A stretch of 20,287 nt of DNA from a virus. Of the stretch, positions 7,913 to 20,287 are shown piece after piece (positions within the stretch are counted from its first letter, which is position 1; every line of letters starts with the position of its first letter). The position numbers were made by a program, and so were the translations under genes. The stretch spans positions 1 to 20,287 of the IMG/VR virus record IMGVR_UViG_3300038560_000038. The stretch is one strand, 5' to 3'. Below the pieces are notes generated by a model. The model ran no database searches. It was not told where the DNA came from and saw nothing but the letters and a program-made list of their open reading frames with translations.

Positions 7913-7933
7913 CCGTTCACGTTTCACCGTTCT
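7913..7933. repeat. Heptamer array, three units
   Basis: CCGTTCA, CGTTTCA and CCGTTCT follow one another with a 7-base period in the 39-base gap between two genes. On the other strand this reads as TGAACGG-type units, the same consensus as the arrays at 10850, 11321 and 12093. The array replaces any strong ribosome site for the next gene, which has only a GGAA near its ATG. Confidence 0.45.
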
Positions 7934-7943
7934 CTGGAACTTC

Positions 7944-8402
7944 ATGGCCTACGCGACACAAGCTCAACTGACGCCACTCCGCCTGACGGCCGCGGAGCTG
8001 ACGCAGCTCACCCTCGATACGCCCACCGGCGATGGTCCCACTGACCAGGCGACAGTGGCCAGCGTGACGGCGGCGGCGCTGGAAGAGGCGAGCGGCAAGG
8101 TGGACAGCTACTGCCGTGCGCGGTACCAGACGCCACTGCAGGCCGACGACGACATTGTGGGGCTCACCATCGACATTGCGCTTTACCTGCTCTTCAGCCG
8201 GCGGCGCAGCTCGAAGATGAGCGAGACGGTGCGCCAGCGGTATGAGGATGCGATCTCGTTTCTTAAAGACATTGCCGCATCCCGCGCATCGCTGGATCAG
8301 CCGGCGGGCGATGTGGCGCAGTCGGCTTCGGCAGGGCCTACCATCAGCCGGCGCGATCATCATCTGCGTTTTAAAGACAGGGATCTGGAGGGCTTTGTTT
8401 AA
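7944..8402 (+). CDS. DUF1320 head-tail connector (Mu gp36-like)
   Basis: The 152-aa product matches DUF1320, which corresponds to Mu gp36 and is thought to act in head completion or head-to-tail joining. It starts MAYATQAQLTPL, followed by a helical segment with VTAAALEEASGKVDSYCRARYQTPL, the family's most conserved stretch, then DDIVGLTIDIALYLLFSRR and a helix with RYEDAISFLKDIA. The C-terminal tail (HLRFKDRDLEGF) is the usual short ending. The stop overlaps the next ATG (TAATG), indicating coupled translation. The ribosome site is weak (GGAA near 7935). Confidence 0.9.
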   Translation: MAYATQAQLTPLRLTAAELTQLTLDTPTGDGPTDQATVASVTAAALEEASGKVDSYCRARYQTPLQADDDIVGLTIDIALYLLFSRRRSSKMSETVRQRYEDAISFLKDIAASRASLDQPAGDVAQSASAGPTISRRDHHLRFKDRDLEGFV

Positions 8403-9070
8403 TGGCAACCGTCCAGATCAAAACAGAGGCCGGCCAGGTTATTACCTCACTCAGCGCCTTCTCCATGTTTCTCCAGAATAAGCAGTCGCTGCTGGAGGTG
8501 ATTGGCGCAGGGCAATTGGTGAGCATATACAGGACTTTCGCTGAAGAGGGAAGCCCTAGCGGGTCGTGGGCTCCGCTTGCTGAATCCACCCGTAAAAGAT
8601 ACAAGCGCGACGGCCACAAGTTGCTTATCAAGAGCGGCAACCTGCGCAATTCGATCAAGGCTGTAGTGGCCGGTAATAGCGTCACTATCGGCACAGGAGT
8701 TGTTTACGCGGCGGTTCAACAGTTCGGTTCGCGAGACCGGGGAAGCATCGGTTATGGGCCGCGAACTAAGGCCATGGATGACGCGAAGGTTAAGGTCGGA
8801 GAGCACGACCGCGAATCATTCCGTGGGCCGCGCGTGAAGTATGGCCGGGTGACCATCGTGGATAAAAACGGTAGGACACGGCGGGTATGGATGAGACGCG
8901 CAGGCCCTATCGAGCGTCGGGTTGGGAAGGTGAGCGCGCACGAGCGGCATCAGAACATTCCGGCGCGTCCTTACCTTGTCTTCCGGCCCGAGGATCCGGA
9001 ACGGATTGAGCAAGAAGTGAGGACGTGGGTTAGTGAGCAGGCCAACGCGGCCGGACTGGAGACCAGCTAA
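8402..9070 (+). CDS. Tail completion / virion morphogenesis protein (Mu gpG-like, phage_tail_S)
   Basis: A 222-aa protein of the gpG/phage_tail_S type, which acts at the head-tail interface. Diagnostic features are the early GSWAPLAESTRKRYKRDGHKLL, then IKSGNLRNSIKAVVAGNSVTIGTGVVYAAVQQFG, and near the end NIPARPYLVFRPEDPERIEQ. Members are often shorter: a basic insert of about 60 residues (roughly 115-180, including RVTIVDKNGRTRRVWMRR) lies between the QQFG and PARPYL motifs. It starts at a TAATG overlap with the DUF1320 gene and ends with another to the next gene. Confidence 0.87.
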   Translation: MATVQIKTEAGQVITSLSAFSMFLQNKQSLLEVIGAGQLVSIYRTFAEEGSPSGSWAPLAESTRKRYKRDGHKLLIKSGNLRNSIKAVVAGNSVTIGTGVVYAAVQQFGSRDRGSIGYGPRTKAMDDAKVKVGEHDRESFRGPRVKYGRVTIVDKNGRTRRVWMRRAGPIERRVGKVSAHERHQNIPARPYLVFRPEDPERIEQEVRTWVSEQANAAGLETS

Positions 9071-9579
9071 TGCCGGCCTCCATGGTATTGCCGGGCGATG
9101 TGGAGCAGAGCCTGCTTGCGGCGCTGACGGCCGGGCTCGCTGAGCCCGCGAGCAATTTCCCCGCCGGCATTGCCGTGGGCGCCATTGGCGACAGGGACAT
9201 CAACGACGATGACCAGCTGGTGCTGCAGATGCCCTGCGCGCGCCAACGCTACGTGGGCACAGCCTACAAAGACAGCGGTGATAACCAGTGGCTGACGTAC
9301 GACACAAGCCACATGTTCGAGATTTGGTGCGCGGCGGAGGACCTGACCAGCAAGGAAGCGCAGCGCACGGCGACCACGGCTGTGCTGGCAGTGGTGATTC
9401 CCCTGGTGGCGGGTGCAAGGCTCAGGTTGAGCGATGGCAGCGTTACGGAGCCCGTGGCGCTCAAAAACGTCGGCAAGCTTCCGGATGACATTGTGGGGTC
9501 CATCTACATCCTCACCATCGAGATCTGCGGCATTGCACAATTCCCAGGCACGCTGGCTGCCGGAAACGAGGACGAGTAA
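9070..9579 (+). CDS. Mu gp37-position protein (DUF1834-like), probable tail terminator
   Basis: A 169-aa protein in the place held by Mu gp37 (DUF1834). It begins with a short helix (PGDVEQSLLAALTAGL) and alternates strands and helices (DQLVLQMPCARQRYVGTAYKDS, then HMFEIWCAAEDLTSKEAQRTATTAVLAVVIPLVAG, ending YILTIEICGIAQF). Such a pattern, with a final strand returning near the C-terminus, suits a tail terminator that caps the tube at the head end. The family call is by position and general pattern, not a clear motif. Both ends overlap neighbours by one base (TAATG). Confidence 0.68.
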   Translation: MPASMVLPGDVEQSLLAALTAGLAEPASNFPAGIAVGAIGDRDINDDDQLVLQMPCARQRYVGTAYKDSGDNQWLTYDTSHMFEIWCAAEDLTSKEAQRTATTAVLAVVIPLVAGARLRLSDGSVTEPVALKNVGKLPDDIVGSIYILTIEICGIAQFPGTLAAGNEDE

Positions 9580-9833
9580 TGGCGAAGACAAAGCGTCCGC
9601 GGCCCGACTTTGCGATGGTGCGGCTTGCGCCGGCGGGCGTGGAGATGGCCGGCAAAGCGGGAACGGTTGGGTTGGCGAACGCGCGGCGGCATTTCCACTT
9701 TGTGGCCGGCGTGGCGCAGGAAGTGGAACGCAGTTACGAGTGGAACGCGGTGCTGCGGCCGCAGCGCTACAAAGGCGAGCCGATTTTTGAAGAAGTGACT
9801 GAAGACGAGCAGGCAGCAAAGGACGGTGAGTGA
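9579..9833 (+). CDS. Small protein in Mu gp38 position, function unknown
   Basis: An 84-aa basic-then-acidic protein, coupled by TAATG to the gene before and by TGATG to the gene after. In Mu, a small protein (gp38, DUF2635) lies at this point, but I cannot see a clear DUF2635 match. Visible are a short strand-rich segment (FAMVRLAPAGVEMAGKAGTVGLANARRHFHFV) and an acidic end (EEVTEDEQAAKDGE). The tight coupling to the tail tube gene suggests a structural or assembly role in the tail. Confidence 0.7.
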   Translation: MAKTKRPRPDFAMVRLAPAGVEMAGKAGTVGLANARRHFHFVAGVAQEVERSYEWNAVLRPQRYKGEPIFEEVTEDEQAAKDGE

Positions 9834-10846
9834 TGGCGGGTCCCTACAATTTTGAATACCAGAAGATAACGGCGCGGCAGCTTGTGCTGAGCGCCTGCAA
9901 GCAGGCAGCCTACAACACCGCGATTGCGGGCGCAAGCATGACGCGGCGGCAGAAGTTTGACGGCCAGGCCGTGGGCGAGCTGAAGCAGACGCGTTTTGAC
10001 GATAAGAAAATGGCGGGCAAAGGCACTGAGTTCGCCACGCAGGGTTTGATCACCGGGTGGGATTCAAGCTTCAACTTCAAGGCCGATGCGGATGACTGGC
10101 TGCTGGGCTGGGCGCTGGCGTTCGCCATGGGCCAGGACACCATTACCGGCGCGGGGCCTTACCTGCACAGCATGGTGTTTGAAGAGACCACCGTGCAGGC
10201 CCCGGCGGCGAGCATCTACCTGCAGGACACCGCGGCGGTGTTCCAGACGCTGGTGGACATGGGTCTTTCCGAGCTGACCATCACCTTTCCGGCGCGCGGG
10301 CCGATTCAGCTTGAAATGAGCTTTGTGGGCACGGGAATCTGGGTTGACGGCGCAATCGGTTCGCTGCCGGCTCTGCCCAGTTCTTACGCTTACATGCTGG
10401 GCTCCGACGTGGTGTTCTCTATCGGCAACCATGGAGCCACGGTGTCAAAGATAGGCCGCTTCCTGAGCGGCAGCATCAAGATCTCGACAGGCGTAAAGAA
10501 CCACACTGCGCCTGGTCTGGGCCTGTTCGGCGCATTCCCGCTGCTGGGACTGCGCAAGGTGAGCTTCAGCGCAACCATCGCGGCCAACTCGACGGAAGAT
10601 ATCCGGCCCATCTTCAACACCAACGAGCTGCAGGAAGTGAACTTCACGGGCACCAGCGGCACGTCGATCGTCAACATCGATTTTCCGTATGTGAACCTGA
10701 AGACCAACAAGCTTGGCGCCAGCGGCAACAACGTGGTGTGGCAGATCACGGGCGATGAAACCACCATATATAACCAGAGCGGCTCAGGCGTGATGACGGC
10801 CGCTGTGACCAACAGCCAGGCGACGGCGTACCTGGTGGGGGCGTAA
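9833..10846 (+). CDS. Major tail tube protein (non-contractile tail)
   Basis: The 337-aa product is rich in Gly, Ser, Thr and Ala with many short beta strands (SELTITFPARGPIQLEMSFVGTG, then LRKVSFSATIAANS and SIVNIDFPYVNLKTNK), the pattern of siphovirus tail tube proteins. An N-terminal helix-loop QKITARQLVLSACKQAAYNTAI precedes the beta core. No tail sheath gene accompanies it, and its position before the chaperone-site genes and tape measure supports the call. The frame includes a GTG at 9830, but ATG 9833 gives the TGATG overlap used by other genes here. The assignment is by pattern and context; I cannot place it in a named family with certainty. Confidence 0.7.
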   Translation: MAGPYNFEYQKITARQLVLSACKQAAYNTAIAGASMTRRQKFDGQAVGELKQTRFDDKKMAGKGTEFATQGLITGWDSSFNFKADADDWLLGWALAFAMGQDTITGAGPYLHSMVFEETTVQAPAASIYLQDTAAVFQTLVDMGLSELTITFPARGPIQLEMSFVGTGIWVDGAIGSLPALPSSYAYMLGSDVVFSIGNHGATVSKIGRFLSGSIKISTGVKNHTAPGLGLFGAFPLLGLRKVSFSATIAANSTEDIRPIFNTNELQEVNFTGTSGTSIVNIDFPYVNLKTNKLGASGNNVVWQITGDETTIYNQSGSGVMTAAVTNSQATAYLVGA

Positions 10847-10849
10847 GAG

Positions 10850-10870
10850 CAGGGATCAGGGATCAGGGAA
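10850..10870. repeat. Heptamer array, three units
   Basis: CAGGGAT, CAGGGAT, CAGGGAA follow each other with a 7-base period, then a partial CAGGATA, in the 49-base gap after the tail tube gene. Read from the third base, these are GGATCAG/GGAACAG units, close to the TGAACAG units at 11321. Confidence 0.6.
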
Positions 10871-10895
10871 CAGGATAAGTAAGAGAGGACTTGAT

Positions 10896-11174
10896 ATGAG
10901 CTGGAGTGTAAGCGCAAGCGGTTCGCCCGCGGAAGCAAAAGAACAACTGCTGAAGCAGTTTGAATATCCGCTGGCCGATGGCAAAGCCGGGCTGGCGGAT
11001 GACGGCGAGAAGGAGACGGTGCGCAAGGTGAGCGCTCTGATTGATCAATGCCTGGATACGTTCGGCCCACGCAAGAGTGTGACCGTCACGGCATCGGGCC
11101 ATATGGGCTTCGACGACTGGGATTCAAAAGAGGGCGCGCATCAGTACGTCTCGATCTCGATTACGCCGGCCTAA
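10896..11174 (+). CDS. Small protein after the tail tube gene, function unknown
   Basis: A 92-aa protein with GAGAGGA ahead of its ATG. It starts MSWSVSASGSPAEAKEQLLKQF and ends with beta-like segments (KSVTVTASGHMGFDDWD, QYVSISITPA), with a helix in the middle (ETVRKVSALIDQCLDTFG). I have a sense of similar small proteins beside phage tail genes, but no function is known to me. Because a strong terminator follows it, it is likely expressed at the same high level as the tail tube, hinting at a virion component or an assembly partner needed in quantity. Confidence 0.75.
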   Translation: MSWSVSASGSPAEAKEQLLKQFEYPLADGKAGLADDGEKETVRKVSALIDQCLDTFGPRKSVTVTASGHMGFDDWDSKEGAHQYVSISITPA

Positions 11175-11188
11175 CAAGGTTTGCTTCG

Positions 11189-11230
11189 GCCGGAGCGTAA
11201 ACAGCGCAGGCGCTCCGGCTTCTTTTTTCT
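11189..11230 (+). terminator. Strong intrinsic terminator
   Basis: GCCGGAGCG (11189-11197) pairs perfectly with CGCTCCGGC (11211-11219), loop of 13, followed directly by TTCTTTTTTCT. It is the most convincing terminator in the window and lies 15 bases after the stop of the 92-aa gene. It divides head, connector and tail tube genes from the tape measure and tip genes. I see no clear promoter in the 148 bases between it and the next start, so partial read-through is likely. Confidence 0.88.
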
Positions 11231-11320
11231 TATGTTGTAACATTCGCGTTCTACGGCGGATGTAGAGGGCAAGCAAACTACGCGGCCCTCAGGCACGGCG
11301 GGGTTCTCCACCCTGAATAG

Positions 11321-11341
11321 CAGTGAACAGTGGACAGTGAC
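11321..11341. repeat. Heptamer array, three units
   Basis: CAGTGAA, CAGTGGA and CAGTGAC follow one another with a 7-base period, 38 bases before the next start codon. The array lies in the 204-base gap that also holds the terminator. The same units recur at 12100-12113 at the other end of the next gene. Confidence 0.65.
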
Positions 11342-11378
11342 CGAAACAAAATCCCAAAAACATCCGTGGAGAATCCTT

Positions 11379-12140
11379 ATGTCATCGACACTCAATTTCG
11401 TTGATCTTGCGCAGCGGCGCAGGGTTGTTGTGCGCCAGGGTAGCGCTACTGTGGGCTATCCGGTGCGGCCTGTTTCTCAGGACGAATGGTTCACCTACTT
11501 TGACGGCATCATCTCAACGTCAGAGCGCGTGGGCAAAAAGGTTGTGACGCACAATGATGCCAGCTCCGCCGGCATTGAGCTGGTGGAGAGCGTGATTGAA
11601 GGCCCCGGCATTGCGCCTTCGCCGCTGGCGCACAAGCTGGCGATCGCCAATGTGCTCACCTCGGCGTATGTGCCCAGTGCGGAAGAGTGCGGATTTCAGG
11701 AGCCGCTGGGTGCGGAAGCGGTACGCATCTGGACTGTGTGGGGCGCGGCGGAAGACGGCGACGCGATGCGGCGGTTCAAGAACCTGGTGCATTGGTTCTC
11801 GCCGCCGACAAGCGAGCACTACCGGCGGTACCGGGCGGCCGACAGCCGCGCGCAGATCATCAGCGGCAGCCGCAAAGGCACCACGGTGTACCGCGGCGCG
11901 CAGCGCACGCTGGCTGCGCTCTATGACGAGCTGATTATTTCCGTGGCCGGCTACGCGGTGGGCGGCGTGGCTCTGGAAGGCACGGCGGGGATCCGGCAGC
12001 ACATGGACACGTATCACAAGGTCACTGCCGCACTGGGCTTGTTCAGCGCAGGCGAGCTGGCGATTGAGGACGAAGAAGAAGAGCAAAAGAGGCAGCGGAC
12101 AGTGGACAGTGAACAGATGACAGCGGCCACTGCCCACTAA
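11379..12140 (+). CDS. Protein in the tail assembly chaperone position, function unknown
   Basis: A 253-aa protein between the tail tube and tape measure genes, where siphophages carry tail assembly chaperones that keep the tape measure soluble. The start ATG 11379 follows GGAGA by a normal spacing; a GTG at 11337 in the same frame lies inside a repeat array and has no good site. The N-terminus (STLNFVDLAQRRRVVVRQGSATVGYPVRPVSQDEWFTYF) is beta-rich, the middle helical, and the end acidic (ELAIEDEEEEQ). The last 16 or so residues (KRQRTVDSEQMTAATAH) and the stop codon are encoded by a heptamer-repeat array and look like a late addition. The chaperone role is inferred from position only. Confidence 0.7.
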   Translation: MSSTLNFVDLAQRRRVVVRQGSATVGYPVRPVSQDEWFTYFDGIISTSERVGKKVVTHNDASSAGIELVESVIEGPGIAPSPLAHKLAIANVLTSAYVPSAEECGFQEPLGAEAVRIWTVWGAAEDGDAMRRFKNLVHWFSPPTSEHYRRYRAADSRAQIISGSRKGTTVYRGAQRTLAALYDELIISVAGYAVGGVALEGTAGIRQHMDTYHKVTAALGLFSAGELAIEDEEEEQKRQRTVDSEQMTAATAH

Positions 12141-12147
12141 CCACTGA
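12093..12147. repeat. Long heptamer array with an inverted second arm
   Basis: Five units CAGCGGA, CAGTGGA, CAGTGAA, CAGATGA and CAGCGGC are followed in register by three units in the opposite sense, CCACTGC, CCACTAA and CCACTGA. CAGTGG and CCACTG are reverse complements, so the whole can fold back. It encodes the end of the preceding gene, including its TAA, and puts a TGA in the frame of the next gene just upstream of its start. Confidence 0.7.
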
Positions 12148-19848: not shown

Positions 19849-19886
19849 ATATATGCAGGGATAACATCATCTTGTAGTTTTTGGAG

Positions 19887-20264
19887 ATGGGTGTCCATCG
19901 CTACGGTCTACGCGACGATCAATGGGAACGGGTTGAAGGGATGCTGCCAGGGCGTAAGGGCACGGTGGGGCGTCCTGCAAACGATAATAGGGTTTTTGTG
20001 GAAGCGGTACTTTATCGTTATCGAGCTGGGATTCCATGGCGCGACTTGCCGGAGCGGTTTGGCGATTTTCGCGTGGTGCATACGCGGTTCAGCCGCTGGG
20101 CCAAACGTGGAATTTGGAAGAAGCTTTTCGAGCATCTGGCGCGGGACGCAGACAATGAATACGCGATGATCGACTCGACGATCGTGCGGGCACATCAACA
20201 CAGCGCGGGGGCGCTGAAAAAGGGGGCTGCGAACAGGCCATCGGACGCAGCAAGGGCGGGCTGA
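19887..20264 (+). CDS. IS5/IS427 transposase, first frame (OrfA)
   Basis: The 125-aa product holds the N-terminal DNA-binding part (YGLRDDQWERVEGMLPGRKG, then YRYRAGIPWRDLPERFGDFRVVHTRFSRWAKRGIWKKLFEHL), the DUF4096-type domain of IS5 family transposases, and the start of the DDE catalytic core (YAMIDSTIVRAHQHS) with first catalytic Asp D96. The remaining catalytic residues lie in the second frame, so the enzyme needs a -1 frameshift at 20219-20225; without it translation stops at 20264. Starts available are TTG 19881 and ATG 19887, with GGAG touching the ATG, so initiation is probably weak. Confidence 0.85.
   Translation: MGVHRYGLRDDQWERVEGMLPGRKGTVGRPANDNRVFVEAVLYRYRAGIPWRDLPERFGDFRVVHTRFSRWAKRGIWKKLFEHLARDADNEYAMIDSTIVRAHQHSAGALKKGAANRPSDAARAG
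20219..20225 (+). promoter_or_regulatory. Slippery heptamer for -1 frameshifting
   Basis: A AAG GGG in the first transposase frame is an X XXY YYZ heptamer inside five A and five G. A -1 slip gives AAA GGG and joins OrfA to the second frame. Confidence 0.75.
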
Positions 20265-20287
20265 GCACCAAAATTCACACCACCGTT
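20222..20287 (+). CDS. IS5/IS427 transposase, second frame (OrfB), 5' part
   Basis: In the -1 frame the sequence reads GGCEQAIGRSKGGLSTKIHT and stays open to the window end. IGRSKGGLSTKIH is the classic continuation of the IS5/IS427 catalytic domain. It has no start of its own and is expected only as part of the frameshifted OrfAB fusion; the rest lies outside the window. Confidence 0.78.

Follow-up and report, generated by a model that had tools for sequence, protein, structure and literature searches.

The REP, BIME and REPIN families of bacterial repeats are copies of one conserved palindrome and are linked to TnpAREP transposases. Intergenic repeats of seven-base units are known from scattered bacteria and have no accepted cause. 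Those of Xanthomonas (GGGAATC) and Nostoc (GGGGATT) are G-rich with quadruplex potential, and the Xanthomonas heptamers lie nearer to their 5' neighbouring gene, at an average of 28 nt and near its stop codon (PMC4692102). In the Beggiatoaceae, TAACTGA is one fixed heptamer found upstream of gene starts as direct repeats, with a single indirect case and no RNA structure predicted (PMC4679880). Geobacter metallireducens possesses elements of four heptamers (GGACCGG and others), and a 49-copy family occurs within genes too (PMC2700814). As far as the consulted text of these accounts extends, none of them describes inverted arms that bracket gene gaps and whose unit sequences, or dialects, covary. 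A heptamer family of this kind is reported here in Acidobacteriota genomes and in a phage of soil bacteria, the IMG/VR virus record IMGVR_UViG_3300038560_000038, whose whole stretch of 20,287 bases, with no host sequence, is called the window below. No description of the Acidobacteriota family was found in the open-access literature; one may exist elsewhere, so its novelty is provisional.

Like REP, BIME and REPIN as generally described, the Acidobacteriota repeats are short, inverted, numerous and placed outside genes, but their cores are unrelated to each other and only the tandem heptamer arms recur. They share with the Xanthomonas and Nostoc repeats, as reported, a seven-base unit present in many, mostly intergenic copies per genome, and differ from them in forming inverted pairs that bracket gaps and whose dialects change jointly. 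The likeness to the published Beggiatoaceae repeat extends to an intergenic position a few bases from gene borders, occurrence within ribosomal protein operons and a patchy taxonomic spread; whereas that repeat is one fixed unit in direct orientation, the present family lies at both borders, in inverted arms and several dialects. The Geobacter elements likewise comprise about four tandem heptamers in dozens of copies, and arm covariation at gap ends separates the Acidobacteriota family from them as they are described (PMC2700814).

Three arrays in the window were called by Tandem Repeats Finder (TRF) and stood out against shuffled sequence. Array A1 (10850..10874, + strand) reads CAGGGAT CAGGGAT CAGGGAA CAGG, or 3.6 copies of CAGGGAT, and begins 4 bases past the stop codon of the tail tube gene. 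Array A2 (11321..11340, + strand), CAGTGAA CAGTGGA CAGTG... (2.9 copies of CAGTGAA), lies in the leader of the gene that starts at 11379. The left arm of array A3 (12093..12116, + strand), CAGCGGA CAGTGGA CAGTGAA CAG (3.4 copies of CAGTGGA), is translated as the tail of this same gene, and its inverted right arm (12127..12146, - strand; CCACTGCCCACTAACCACTG, i.e., CCACTG CCCACTA ACCACTG) stands directly before the ribosome-binding site of the 12154 gene. Among periods 4-12, period 7 alone yields runs of high score in the window. In 200 shuffled windows no run matched A1 in strength and runs equalling A3 arose at 0.035 per window, and local shuffles gave 0/5000 for A1, p = 0.0002 for A2 and 0/5000 for A3. 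The sequence-only reading of this DNA had proposed four arrays of strict 7-base period at gene borders, and this holds for these three, all of which lie on the + strand, either in a gap or where a gene ends. The fourth, at 7913..7936 (- strand; CCGTTCA CGTTTCA CCGTTCT CTG), received no TRF call and has lag 7 as its best lag (0.53 vs 0.17-0.35 for other lags) with a p of only ~0.03; it was rejected as an equal member of the family, and may be a degenerate one since its orientation fits a start-side arm. That reading had also overlooked the inverted partner of A3, the translation of A3, the inverted pairing as such and the orientation rule given below.

The 11379 gene lacks a stop codon at the point where its relatives end, and it reads through A3 to stop within the right arm (12138-12140). 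The resulting C-terminal tail (12075-12140) adds ~18-20 residues that the relatives do not have. The two arms of A3 together fold at -24.4 kcal/mol (z -1.96).

Through the major head protein, 17 related contigs were retrieved, and the related phages L005-L021 are syntenic with the window, which makes the same junctions comparable. None of the relatives that cover the A1, A2 and A3 junctions (about ten related phages) has an array there. In the closest, L015 and L011, the tail tube gene is followed by the next gene with neither arrays nor the 92-aa gene that the window has at 10896-11174, between A1 and A2. The A2 leader aligns across nine phages save for a ~24-base insertion in the window, and at the A3 junction a relative such as L011 ends in ...GAAGAGGAATAAATGG where the window continues through the array. 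At the next junction, L005 and L007 have CAGGGATCAGAGGTCAGGGGTCAGGGATCAG after the stop codon and L016 has an array in reverse orientation ahead of the start; these appear to have been gained separately. Because the syntenic relatives lack arrays at these sites and two other phage lineages have different arrays elsewhere, the comparison shows A1-A3, as judged by synteny, to be gains of the window phage. Together with the host enrichment described next, this supports the earlier proposal that a host repeat has spread into a phage. The accompanying suggestion of a long prophage residence in the lineage is not shown, as the gain is measured against relatives at roughly 65-77% DNA identity and such a comparison yields no date.

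Separately from its array, the leader of the 11379 gene has a stem-loop (11302-11376) that encloses the ribosome-binding region and holds A2 within its loop. Relatives keep this stem with other letters (GGGTCCTTC...GAAGGACCC in L005, GGTTCCTTC...GAAGGAACC in L012) and also keep a loop motif like ACAAAATCC.

Three metagenome-assembled genomes labelled Acidobacteriaceae contain relatives of the major head protein, the closest of them 81% identical, and we infer an Acidobacteriaceae host lineage for the phage from this placement of its relatives. In three Acidobacteriaceae genomes carrying relatives of the window phage, the heptamer was strongly enriched, contrary to the refuting outcome named in the sequence-only reading, with 128, 106 and 101 matches to the two-unit pattern CAGKGRWCAGKGRWCAG vs 2, 2 and 0 for a reversed control. 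The pattern was matched, unevenly, in 45 of 199 genomes of the phylum and in 28 of 30 genomes of a related group. High reversed-control counts in G067 and G066 point to other heptamer units of the CAGGTGA or CAGGGGA type, which this control can match and which are the likely cause of such counts in a few genomes (G067). Within the CAGKGRW set, C1, A2, G3 and G5 are near-constant, and the units differ at positions 4, 6 and 7 only. Other dialects exist, GGGACTA being the commonest in G210 and G224. Two genomes without CAGKGRW, G217 and G225, were considered as family-free genomes that might give a clue to a trans-acting factor; this was rejected, as the dialect of G217 resembles CAGTTCG and that of G225 is degenerate. 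The idea of one dialect per genome likewise failed, since dialects vary among the gaps of a single genome (gaps 6 and 10 of G203), although certain genomes have a preferred dialect.

Placement was analysed in 1.29 Mb from four genomes, in which 109 of 118 arrays are intergenic though 81% of the DNA is coding. The corresponding densities, 1.68/kb outside genes vs 0.056/kb inside, come from regions picked for holding arrays and are not genome averages, the coding/noncoding contrast being internal to those regions. Arrays nearest a stop codon start a median of 6.5 nt downstream, pointing away from the gene, and those nearest a start lie a median of 34 bases upstream, mostly in reverse orientation. 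Within 40 nt of the nearest border, 71 arrays are outward and 8 inward. Outward arrays at both ends of a gap were observed 24 times vs 4.6 expected, with 23 of these gaps co-directional and none divergent. Because arrays read outward from stops and lie reversed upstream of starts, the repeat often brackets gaps between co-directional genes with inverted arms. An alternative arrangement as gene-centred cassettes, with arms flanking a gene, was much weaker (8 vs 3.8 expected) than the gap-centred one. The host family itself is the stronger result, and its pairing and orientation rule change what the repeat is.

Array-bearing viral contigs follow a weaker form of the orientation rule (54 outward vs 19 inward). 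In the viral loci L022-L045 and L099-L217, 64 of 164 arrays fall within called genes, and 60 of these share the strand of the gene; they are perhaps coding repeats of another kind. Ribosomal protein operons are rich in the paired form: hairpins of period 7 occur in 89 of 239 ribosomal gaps of 90-300 bases. Random co-directional gaps had them in 1 of 51 cases in G203 and 1 of 67 in G210, so the ribosomal operon is atypical and genome-wide ubiquity was rejected. One ribosomal protein operon region, L241 (G174:C32:1-19900), has heptamer arrays in many gene gaps.

The two arms of a gap share their dialect. Where a gap has an arm at each end, the two are of one type (CAGG or CAGT) in 31 of 36 cases vs 18.8 by permutation. 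The rpsC-rplP gap was extracted from 25 genomes, nearly all of which have ~4 units past the stop codon and ~4 inverted ones ahead of the ribosome-binding site; their dialects include CAGGGAT, CAGTGAT, CAGAGAT, TAGGGAC, TAGCTTC, CAGTTCT and TAGTTCA; the arms are degenerate in L309 and L314. Mean arm pairing at this gap is -47.6 kcal/mol for native pairs vs -28.1 kcal/mol for arms swapped between genomes, and the native pair was better than its own swapped mean in all 24 tested. The same comparison gave p <0.02 at seven further gaps and not at the remaining ones. RNAalifold predicted eight pairs for rpsC-rplP, all of them changed on both sides. When the outermost register is imposed, pairing extends to 78% of cells, both-sided change is seen in 23 of 33 pairs and the covariation score is 0.389 vs 0.170 shuffled, although these pairing figures are somewhat inflated by the choice of this register as the best of those tried. 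Registers 7 and 14 columns off also pair well (0.66-0.72), others at ~0.29-0.45. The left arms keep a strict 7-base period, with matches of 0.46 at lag 7, 0.43 at lag 14 and ~0.22-0.26 at other lags. Cores are alike in 100 of 667 pairs of orthologous gaps and are not shared between different gaps: of 12,053 non-orthologous pairs only 5 matched, 4 representing one locus entered twice and 1 borderline. Gaps other than rpsC-rplP lack the entire hairpin, or have lost it, in many genomes.

The mismatches within hairpins bear on what keeps the arms alike. G-U mismatches number 117 vs 104 for A-C (p 0.42), and the counts by hairpin are 31 vs 27; because G-U is not in excess of A-C, this favours a DNA-level process over selection at the RNA level. 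Arm-to-arm identity is 0.78 at the best register, 0.64-0.67 at +/-7 and 0.23-0.26 at +/-3 or 4, and a heptamer array tolerates slippage because a one-unit shift leaves the arms in register. With moderate confidence, we take the window arrays to be phage-borne copies of an Acidobacteriota repeat family whose arms stay similar chiefly through DNA-level slippage and strand switching. The unit is (C/T)AG followed by four variable bases, set in short tandem arms as inverted pairs at gap ends, and a gap of this kind consists of stop codon, CAG arm, unrelated core, inverted arm, ribosome-binding site and start codon. Junctions within the phage's structural-gene operon gained such copies. Host arrays most likely served as the template for them, since the phage arrays carry the host's mix of unit variants; these copies appear as some single arms and one pair (12093/12127). 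Slippage would move, add or delete units within arms, and strand switching across the hairpin would copy one arm into the other, such that a pair shifts its dialect jointly and the core is unchanged. Persistence of the arms would then reflect largely tolerance and renewal, and not a defined job.

Several observations weigh against this reading. The arms persist in nearly all 25 rpsC-rplP gaps and hairpins are concentrated in ribosomal operons, which suggests selection for something. A1 and A2 have no inverted partner, no copying event was directly observed, the host of the window phage is placed by way of its relatives, the gene calls behind the placement counts come from a custom-built caller, and the related genomes compared are non-independent samples. 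The persistence would suit functional RNA hairpins between cistrons, in which paired transcript arms stabilise, process (e.g., by RNase III) or insulate messages and pairing is selected as the letters drift. Covariation of the arms across genomes, the preference for co-directional gaps with divergent ones rare, the position between stop codon and ribosome-binding site, the concentration in ribosomal operons and the retention at rpsC-rplP in nearly all genomes all agree with such hairpins. The G-U excess that they predict is absent, however, the unpaired A1 and A2 fold no better than usual, and Rfam had no match for the hairpins; we regard this explanation as possible but on the unlikely side. 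It is improbable, in our estimate, that Acidobacteriota possess a mechanism devoted to creating and repeatedly rewriting the matched inverted arms at gap ends, chiefly in ribosomal operons, and acting on resident phages too; such a mechanism might have an enzyme of its own.

The constant outer ends (CAG...CTG) and the better pairing of native than of swapped arms could also be those of terminal inverted repeats, with the arms moved into small gene gaps by a putative transposase as in a miniature inverted-repeat transposable element. The occurrence of some gaps in either a ~15- or a ~130-base form among related genomes, and the gain of arrays in the phage, would fit such movement. Against it, the cores of one genome are unrelated between sites and form no homologous body, single arms are common, and the short rplN-rplX gaps resemble deletion remnants that keep the outer units. 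No target-site duplication was found, there being no clean recent empty/filled pair among the phage junctions and host gaps compared. An element of this type seems quite improbable. A regulator that binds DNA or RNA by recognising YAG at seven-base intervals would account for the constant positions of the CAGKGRW set and for the strict orientation and position of the arrays, but the dialects alter almost everything except YAG and one-sided recognition needs no shared dialect between arms, which makes this very unlikely. Last, each phage and host array might have arisen alone by slippage as an ordinary simple repeat, as the tandem period-7 structure and the abundance of intergenic heptamers reported for some bacteria (PMC4692102) would allow. 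The unit family and variants shared by phage and host already disfavour such independent origins, as does the orientation rule; given also the inverted pairing and the low chance expectation, we find them hardly credible.

The window encodes a terminase, a portal protein, a Mu F-like protein, the major head protein, a head-tail adaptor and the tail tube protein. The tail tube gene (9833..10846, + strand; Pfam Phage_tube_2, 6e-10) is the one whose stop codon precedes A1. The gene whose 3' end carries A3 is a tail-module gene (11379..12140, + strand), and its homologues in 11 related loci end before the array. For the 92-aa gene, neither a homologue in the related phage loci nor a family match was found. 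At 19881-20287, the start of an IS4/5-type transposase (DUF4096) is interrupted by the end of the record.

The sharp anatomy of the Acidobacteriota arrays, with arms reaching from the stop codon to the next ribosome-binding site, a joint change of dialect and a stable middle, makes the origin of a heptamer repeat testable, because the mismatch patterns and population histories expected from DNA strand switching with slippage, from RNA selection and from mobile insertion differ. The phage adds the acquisition of arrays at junctions where its relatives have none, and heptamer repeats of this kind may help to tie uncultured phages to Acidobacteriota hosts.

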